Shown here one piece after another: positions 17,901 through 20,900 of a stretch of 64,000 nucleotides of DNA. Each line of letters starts with the position of its first letter. Positions within the stretch are counted from its first letter, which is position 1. Source of the stretch: Branchiostoma floridae (lineage: Eukaryota; Chordata; Leptocardii; Amphioxiformes; Branchiostomatidae); assembly GCF_000003815.2 (NCBI RefSeq), contig NC_049980.1:26696508-26760507 (forward strand), read 5' to 3'. The notes under the pieces are model-generated. The model ran no database searches, had not been told where the DNA came from, and was given only the letters and a program-made list of their open reading frames with translations. A program made the translations under genes and the position numbers.

Positions 17901-20900
17901 ACATGATCTGCCTCATAACGACGGACGCGCAAGAACATAACAAGCACGCCGAAGTTAAAATGTCTCATAATTTAACGTTACATAATGTAGACTATGTCAA
18001 GAATATCATATAGCCTTGACTAGGGCTGGGTACCCGGGTACAGAAAATTCATGTCCGGTCCAGGTCCGGACCTGATTCAGTATGACTCATACCAATGGTC
18101 CATTTTCACTACAAAGAAATCTGTTTGGTGGAGTATTAGACTTACACTGGCGTTTTAAAATCCTACAACGCTAACTGCACCTGTACGATTGACTGAAAAA
18201 CTTGGAAGAAATTACTATAAACTCTACTCTACTTTACTCTTGTCATTTTCTTCCAACTGCAAGCGCCAAAACGTGTGAATGCATGATCAAATAATATGTT
18301 AATTTTCTAATCGGTCCAACATCCGGTCAACCTAATTTTTTCAGATCCGTTTTTTCTGGACCGGTCCAATAGGAAAAAAAACGGTTTTGTACCGGTACGC
18401 TGTACCGATACCCAGCCCTAGCCTCTACCAATCTCACTCATTATTCCACTCTCACCTACATACCATCCTAGCGTTCTTGACTTCACCAACCATATCATTT
18501 CCTTACTGTTAGACTGGGAAGAACCTTAAGCTTTGACCTCCAAGTCAACCTTCCTATCCTTCCAGTTCCCGATTACAGCATCTTCTGCCACTCCATTATA
18601 CTATAGTCACATAACTATGGACACAGACAATATACAGACACGACAAAAACAAAGCCTCCGTACATGAAATGATAATTTGCCCCACCTTATACAGCTTGCT
18701 GTCTCTAAAGGTGAGGATGGCCTGTCCGCCTGCCCCGTGGCCCCTTTGGGTGTCGTGGGTGTCCACGAACACCAACGCGTTGTTGTCCCACTGCATACCC
18801 CAGGTCTCGCCGATGAACTGCAGATAAGCCAGCTTCTGTCCGTACTGCTTTCTAAAGAGGGTTCCGAGCTGCATGCCGTACCTGTAGTATCACATCACCA
18901 TGTCCCATGAAAGGGTTTGCATTAAGTTAATCACACTACTAGACGCAAAGCATTGCTATGCATACCTAAATCAGCTTTTAGGTTACGTCTAAATGTAGTG
19001 ACATTTGATAACCAGTTAGTAGCTTATAACTATTACATTTCATTCTTGTACTTTTTCTTCTACGTATTCACAAACAATTTTGTCTAGCTGAAAAGTTTCT
19101 ATTTTCTAATTTCCTAAATTTCTCCATGAAAAGTTTTCTTCACTTAAGTTGATCGAAAGTTAGAAAAACAATGAATTTCTGTTCCCACTAAAAGAACATT
19201 TCACTCCATCGGGAAACGTGGACTTTCTCGATGGAGTTTCATTTAAAAAAATCTTGTCATGACCATTTTGTGACTTCTGAATCCTACCAGTCTTGTTTTG
19301 TCCCATAGAAGCTGAAAAACTATTTCTGATAAGTAAAAGAGCTAAAGATTACCTGAACTCTGTGATCCTCCCTAGATGGGTGTACTCTGATGACGAAATT
19401 GCCTCTCCACCCAGGTCGATGACCTCCATGGCGATGAAGGGGCGGGAACCTGACGGGAAGTAAGCGGTGTTGAGGTCGCTGAGCCGGCCGAAGATGGCGG
19501 CCAAGTCTCCCGGCAACATGTGTTTGGCGGCATCAACACGGAAGCCGGCAACTCCGATGGAGATAAGGTAGTTCATGTAGTCCACGATCTTCCCACGGAC
19601 GTAGTCGCTACTGAGCTTCGAATCCAACTTGCTGGCCCAGCGGCAGTTACGTACCTGTGGGAAGGAAGGAAAGAAGAANNNNNNNNNNNNNNNNNNNNNN
19701 NNNNNNNNNNNNNNNNNNNNNNNNNNNNNNNNNNNNNNNNNNNNNNNNNNNNNNNNNNNNNNNNNNNNNNNNNNNNNNAGGAAAGAAGGAAGGAATTTAT
19801 AGGAAGGAAGGAAAGAAGGAAGGAAGGAAGGAAGGAAGGAAGGAAGGAAGGAAGGAAGGAAGGAAGGAAGGAAGGAAGGAAGGAAGGAAGGAAGGAAGGA
19901 AGGAAGGAAGGAAGGAAGGAAGGAAGGAAGGAAGGGAGGGGAGATAAGAAAACAACACGCCATCCATAGTAACACACGGGCTACAGACGTGTGTGGCTTG
20001 GGACTACGGGCTGCAGCATTAACAGCACCCAAAATGGACTAATTTTATTTGTAAAGCCCCCTTCACACGAGAGCAAGAATCAGCCGGAATGCCGTCGGAA
20101 TGAAAATTCTTTTCTATTCCTGGCAATTCTTGGCAATTCGTAGTGTGTTCCAGAAATTATCACTGCATTCCAGCTATTTGTGTCCGTTCTTTTGGCTGGC
20201 TCGAAAGTTTTTGAGATGTTAAAAACTGTCGAGGTGCAAATTCGAAGTGGAGAAATATCGAATGTCTAACTGCAGTTTGACCGTATTTTACGGCATTCCA
20301 ACATTATTCGAAACATTCTTATCTCATTCGATGGAGAATCGAAACAGCAAGCCACTTCGAATCCTGCCAAATTGTGGCCAAAAGAATCAGATTTAGAATA
20401 CACTACGAATTCACAGGAATAGAAAATAATTTTTATTCTGACGGCATTTTGGCTCATTCCTTCTCATGTGAAGGGGATATAAGGTCCATTTGTAATTCCC
20501 ACCCAAATGTGGCACAACTTTTGGAAATACTTCATTCCGGCTGTTCCTGCTTGATTCCTGCTGATTCGGTTTCAGTGTGAAGGCCCTTTTAGCAAAATCG
20601 ATATTCGAGTATGGTATGAGTGCAGTGCAATGACATAGATGGATGGTAACGATATTCGTCAAACCATGGTAAACATATATAGATGTAATTTTATTCTTAA
20701 TCAAAACATCTCAGACAGTCCCATGAACTTGGGGTCGTAACTGCAGGTCCAGTACCCAGAGCTAGAGGTCCTTACCAATTGGTTCGAATCCCGAGAGACT
20801 ACCTTAAGTTTACGTTCTATCTGTCCTTTTATGTGGCACTTTTCTGTTACTTCGCAGAGCACAGATCATATCTTGGACTCAACATGCTACACTCAAAACC

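Follow-up and report, generated by a model that had tools for sequence, protein, structure and literature searches.

A tandem alpha-amylase paralogue of Branchiostoma floridae has threonine in place of the chloride-ligand asparagine

One of four tandem alpha-amylase genes on the minus strand of a 64,000-nucleotide stretch of Branchiostoma floridae DNA (the window) encodes threonine at the position of the chloride-ligand asparagine, Asn298 in the numbering of human pancreatic amylase (HPA). Judged from its sequence, the product of this gene (gene A) is an animal-type amylase without the full chloride signature. Further unusual substitutions surround the same active site, and we give an even chance to the reading that gene A encodes an active amylase in which the chloride site is weakened and the cleft altered.

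Results

A cluster of four amylase genes

The four genes, A to D, were delineated by protein-level comparison within the window and by reading of splice sites (Table 1). Genes A, B and C have 13 coding exons apiece. Gene A extends from 25164 to 11905 and its 12 introns are all of the GT-AG type; a pseudogene by frame damage was rejected, as the 13 exons join into one continuous frame of 722 codons. Exon 6 of gene D is interrupted by an N gap (61046-61145) and was therefore omitted from alignments; its readable edge still gives PYGFVR, with R337 and G334 readable there. Over the catalytic part, identity to C is 86% for A and also for B. The exon of the catalytic Asp300, exon 5, belongs to those that differ most between A-D (81-88% DNA identity; for comparison, 92-96% in exon 4 and 94-99% in exon 12).

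Table 1. Amylase features in the window (HPA residue numbers; positions of the whole stretch)
Feature	Position	Strand	Basis
Gene A exon 1: start codon and signal-peptide-like N-terminus	24994..25164	-	signal peptide judged by eye
Gene A exon 2	24024..24175	-	splice sites
Gene A exon 3: VVINH motif, calcium ligand N100	21273..21462	-	
Gene A exon 4: chloride ligand R195 (19538-19540), nucleophile D197 (19532-19534), acid/base E233 (19424-19426)	19353..19654	-	codons checked
Gene A stretch WASKLDS: L162W (19637-19639), L165K (19628-19630), L168S (19619-19621)	19619..19639	-	
Gene A W203L codon, in KHMLPGD	19514..19516	-	
Gene A exon 5, carries VDTHD	18686..18881	-	acceptor AG, donor GT
Gene A N298T codon ACC (AAC in B, C, D)	18758..18760	-	
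Gene A exon 6: G334A (17309-17311), chloride ligand R337 (17300-17302)	17162..17344	-	
Gene A exon 7: G413R, G422E	15130..15254	-	
Gene A exon 8: part of domain C, PF02806 match at residues 426-495	14626..14798	-	
Gene A exons 9-13: end of domain C and C-terminal extension of ~200 residues; stop codon 11905-11907	11905..14475	-	
Gene B, 13 exons, VDNHD at 36017-36031	31346..42340	-	
Gene C, 13 exons, VDNHD at 48221-48235	43927..52476	-	
Gene D exons 3-13, VDNHD at 61824-61838; exons 1-2 outside the window, in L092	56105..63504	-	

In all four genes, exons 9-13 encode the C-terminal extension of about 200 residues, within which a Pfam scan of gene A gave no match. An extra C-terminal amylase domain is described for some species (PMC3096672). 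Between A and B lie a tandem array of about 12 copies of a 78-base unit (28687-29659) and a lone additional copy of exon 12 with an in-frame TAA (30028-30228, minus strand), which is a remnant of a partial duplication. A similar block was seen at the translated level between neighbouring genes (25839-26466, 42665-43225 and 55233-55918); it is possibly shared promoter or transcript-end sequence. RNA families gave no match in the window at the gathering threshold, and tblastn with gene C (E 1e-3) gave no further copies in the 50 kb flanking the cluster on one side and the 30 kb on the other.

Threonine at position 298

The sequence-only reading had described VDTHD in exon 5 of gene A and VDNHD in genes B, C and D, and both this and its exon boundaries were right. 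The motif lies at 18752-18766 on the minus strand, the Thr and Asn codons are a single base apart, and the Thr298 codon is not adjacent to a gap, the nearest N run being at 19679-19778 in intron 3. In the alignment to HPA (chain 3old) the residue falls at position 298, and Arg195 and Arg337 align as expected. With the HPA numbering reproduced on the human chain, the identification of the affected residue as the chloride-ligand Asn298 is confirmed, as is the claim that the catalytic Asp and both arginines are kept.

Gene A retains R195, D197, E233, H299, D300 and R337, and B and C do likewise. Among solved structures its sequence is nearest to vertebrate amylases, with 3vm5 (E 3.2e-203), which we take to be a medaka protein, as the best match, and its Pfam matches are PF02806 (domain C) and, above cut-off over a short stretch (residues 84-120), PF00128. 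The calcium ligands Asn100, Arg158, Asp167 and His201 are also present, according to a list of Drosophila amylase ligands (PMC10384113) that was converted to HPA numbers in this analysis. The RNR chloride signature is incomplete in gene A, with Thr for Asn298, and the mite-type RSR signature is absent, the residue being Thr and no Ser; the basic third ligand, lost where position 337 is non-basic (e.g. Gln), is present as Arg337. Thr298 may nevertheless act like the Ser of mite RSR amylases, though gene A is no mite-type member.

Rarity of the substitution

For comparison, 82 references were aligned: HPA, medaka (3vm5) and 80 bacterial loci, the latter chosen as the best 80 among 103 relatives that the patterns HLFEWRW and PWWERYQ had retrieved, so that the set is animal-like by selection and has just two animals in it. 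At column 298, Asn was found in 79 of 81 references, Ser in two and Thr in none, with a gap in the remaining one (L069). References with Arg or Lys at position 337 have Asn298 in 46/48 cases and Ser in 2/48, while those with another residue at 337 have Asn298 in 33/33. By the latter figure, Asn is conserved for more than chloride; its loss may therefore act on catalysis itself as well as through chloride, and conservation of Asn298 is not evidence for chloride binding alone. The earlier chloride interpretation named the right residue, but it did not reckon with an Asn that is kept also where the basic third ligand is missing, nor with the further substitutions in gene A described below. Published accounts describe this Asn as conserved in chloride-independent amylases too (PMC10384113) and as not invariant at the chloride site within GH13_24 (PMC8467227). 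Two Thiohalocapsa amylase relatives (L050 and L062) with Ser at 298 read VDSHE, so that Glu replaces the catalytic Asp300.

The genome of the animal itself (513,431,437 bases in 431 contigs) was searched with exon 5 of gene C. Taking the best candidates only, eight exon-5 places were found, namely A, B, C and D, one on contig C16, two on C5 and one on C240; seven of them encode Asn298, and Thr occurs in gene A alone. A second allele of gene A in the assembly was sought among these eight places and rejected. In a small search of the open-access literature no report of Thr at the chloride-Asn site was found, and queries of the open-access literature for chloride-binding Thr paralogues, for amylase N298S directly and for a Branchiostoma digestive amylase gave no match.

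The copy on C16 (G000 C16:188828-198786; L110, L111) is D-like: each of the 13 exons has a match in it, and around exons 5-7 its two main aligned pieces agree with D at 93% and 97% identity. It represents either a recent copy that has been dispersed or an allele that was placed separately. On C5 (G000 C5:13986673-13997358; L116, L117) two tandem genes belong to a more distant type, with exon-by-exon identities to gene C of about 49-77%, and both retain Asn298 and Trp203. The C240 copy resembles one of these C5 genes (98.7% over 1228 bases). The 12 matches listed by a PF00128 search of the same genome lie on C1 and C12, outside the window, so this search is no measure of amylase copy number; in the surrounding stretches, tblastn with gene C found nothing at E 1e-3.

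Other active-site changes in gene A

Columns conserved in at least 95% of the references (n=68) were regarded as near-invariant. Gene A breaks four of them, by L162W, L168S, N298T and G334A, where the reference residue is found in 78/78, 78/78, 79/81 and 81/81 sequences, respectively. Genes B, C and D break only one, by G425A, which is common to all three, and none of them has a private break. Leu162, Leu168 and Trp203 are kept in B, C, D, the C16 copy and both C5 copies, and Gly334 is kept in these and in C240. In a post hoc test, made after the changes had been seen and with gene D incomplete, private changes fell on the near-invariant columns in 4/25 cases for A versus 0/42 for B, C and D together (Fisher p 0.017) and 0/22 for B alone (p 0.11). 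With a cut-off of 90% the same test gave 5/25 versus 2/42 (p 0.093; against B alone 0.19), and with a cut-off of 100% it gave 3/25 versus 0/42 (p 0.048; against B alone 0.24). The enrichment of gene A at highly conserved columns is modest. Across 251 columns at which HPA and medaka agree, private departures numbered 10 in A, 9 in B, 2 in C and 3 in D, so that gene A is not special in number when set against B.

Gene A has two further changes. L165K affects a position that is Leu in 74/78 references, Arg in three and Met in gene B, and W203L replaces a Trp that varies across the bacterial references but that PMC8467227 reports to be invariant in its comparison of the human salivary surface-site residues. 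Leu162 and Leu165 were assigned to a hydrophobic cleft pocket in a docking study (PMC6366418), and G334A sits three residues ahead of the chloride ligand Arg337. L162W, L165K, L168S and W203L beside the cleft and G334A near Arg337 probably change the same active site further. With several unusual substitutions in one gene, an altered activity of gene A would not be attributable to N298T alone. This group of changes, together with the Asn kept where position 337 is not basic, makes gene A a candidate for a wider functional change.

Selection on gene A

Pairwise dN/dS, counted for D without exons 1, 2 and 6, was 0.39-0.50 across the six pairs. The pairs involving A were no higher than the rest, and a wholly relaxed gene was rejected on this ground. 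Omega derived from private changes, with counts rounded, rose from about 0.28 in D and 0.34 in C to 0.52 in A and 0.67 in B. Silent changes exceeded the neutral share with a binomial p of 0.04 in A and 0.19 in B, likewise from rounded counts. The replacement rate of gene A is not above that of B, and its private changes do not differ from those of C and D combined (Fisher p 0.27). By these measures gene A looks to be selected as a protein and to evolve about as fast as B.

Discussion

The product of gene A is predicted to be a secreted animal-type (GH13_24-like) alpha-amylase with Arg195-Thr298-Arg337 at the chloride site instead of Arg-Asn-Arg. Thr would lack the amide contact that Asn298 makes to chloride, and its hydroxyl probably turns to the adjacent catalytic Asp300, like Ser in human N298S. 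The two arginines would then hold chloride more weakly, and activation would be lowered and not abolished; some catalysis is also likely to be lost independently of chloride. Relative to Ser, the extra methyl of Thr could leave the site blocked, or nearly normal. G334A together with L162W, L165K, L168S and W203L would modify the active site further, and for this reason gene A is better described as a diverged paralogue than as a mutant of the chloride site alone. Should the animal be marine, high gut chloride may mask the weaker site.

Replacement of the Asn at the chloride site is already known in animals, and RTR is a new version of this known type of replacement (RNR to RSR). The amylase Aca s 4 of Acarus siro, a mite, has Ser for the chloride Asn and is activated by chloride less than pig amylase is; its authors relate this to the replaced residue and to data on human mutants (PMC3306266). 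Ser at this site is reported for three mite amylases of GH13_24, including those of D. pteronyssinus and E. maynei (PMC8467227). Gene A resembles Aca s 4 in the natural loss of the Asn ligand with both arginines and the catalytic triad kept; it differs in having Thr, and in being one paralogue of a tandem cluster. Cleft changes like those of gene A are not described in the parts of the mite accounts used here (PMC3306266, PMC8467227). Because Ser at the same site goes with low chloride activation in Aca s 4, a weaker chloride response of the gene A enzyme is plausible by analogy.

In human N298S, the work of Maurus et al. is reported to show that Ser interacts with the transition-state stabiliser (PMC10384113), and Ser298 is present in deposited human chains (u19110, 7 entries: 1xgz, 1xh0, 1xh1, 1xh2, 3bak, 3bax, 3bay). 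As in gene A, a hydroxyl side chain replaces Asn at the same position, but there the Ser is an engineered variant of the human enzyme and here the Thr is natural. In lepidopteran and Amyrel amylases Arg337 is changed to Gln (PMC10384113, PMC3306266); this too is a natural change of the chloride site, but in the basic third ligand, which gene A keeps. A cluster of AmyA and AmyB (13121 and 13095 bases, 78% identical) and an isolated AmyC have been described in Branchiostoma floridae (PMC3096672). That account and ours have in common the clustered intron-bearing genes (13.3 kb in the case of gene A) and the presence of a more distant type at another place in the genome. They differ in that four genes are clustered here, and in that AmyA and AmyB are 78% identical to each other, against 86% to C for A and for B here. 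The consulted part of that account does not discuss chloride ligands (PMC3096672).

A more far-reaching form of the preferred reading is that gene A has been neofunctionalised. N298T and G334A would lower the gain of the chloride switch and L162W, L165K, L168S and W203L would rebuild the cleft, so that three conventional copies would be accompanied by an enzyme whose substrate or product pattern differs and which is hardly controlled by chloride. We hold this proposal to be tentative and rather unlikely.

The same substitutions could mark a gene that is losing its function, a still intact copy with weak or no activity whose conserved active-site residues have drifted. The four breaks at near-invariant columns agree with this, as do W203L, G413R and G422E. 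The retention of Asn298 where 337 is not basic points the same way, as it suggests that this residue acts directly in the active site. We nevertheless consider such a loss doubtful, since the catalytic and calcium residues examined, the borders of all 12 introns and the full frame are intact. The omega of A and its silent excess also speak against it, and B, with the higher omega, has no private break in the 68 columns.

Distinctly less probable is that N298T is nearly neutral, with chloride in a marine gut so high that a lower affinity costs nothing and Asn298 is free to vary. Seawater contains about 0.5 M chloride. Asn is nonetheless kept in all but one of the exon-5 places found and in nearly all references, also in those of several marine genera, e.g. 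Pseudoalteromonas and Photobacterium, and it is kept where chloride binding is not expected. In favour of neutrality, the mite enzyme with the Asn-to-Ser change works and is produced abundantly (PMC3306266). That the change stems from an error of assembly or sequencing, or is a rare allele of the animal sequenced, is very improbable: only one base is concerned and the genome does hold separately placed near-copies (the C16 copy of D and the C240 copy of a C5 gene), but the stretch lies away from gaps in a clean frame, and one base error would not yield the other private changes at conserved sites in separate exons.

The cluster is a natural side-by-side case, in which four tandem amylases are found in one animal and one of them is without a ligand of the allosteric chloride. 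An assay of gene A alone would not be readable as a test of N298T, given the other active-site changes it carries. A comparison of A with C could show what Asn298 contributes beyond the two arginines and why it persists in relatives without the basic third ligand, and it could show if chloride control is dispensable in a chloride-rich gut.
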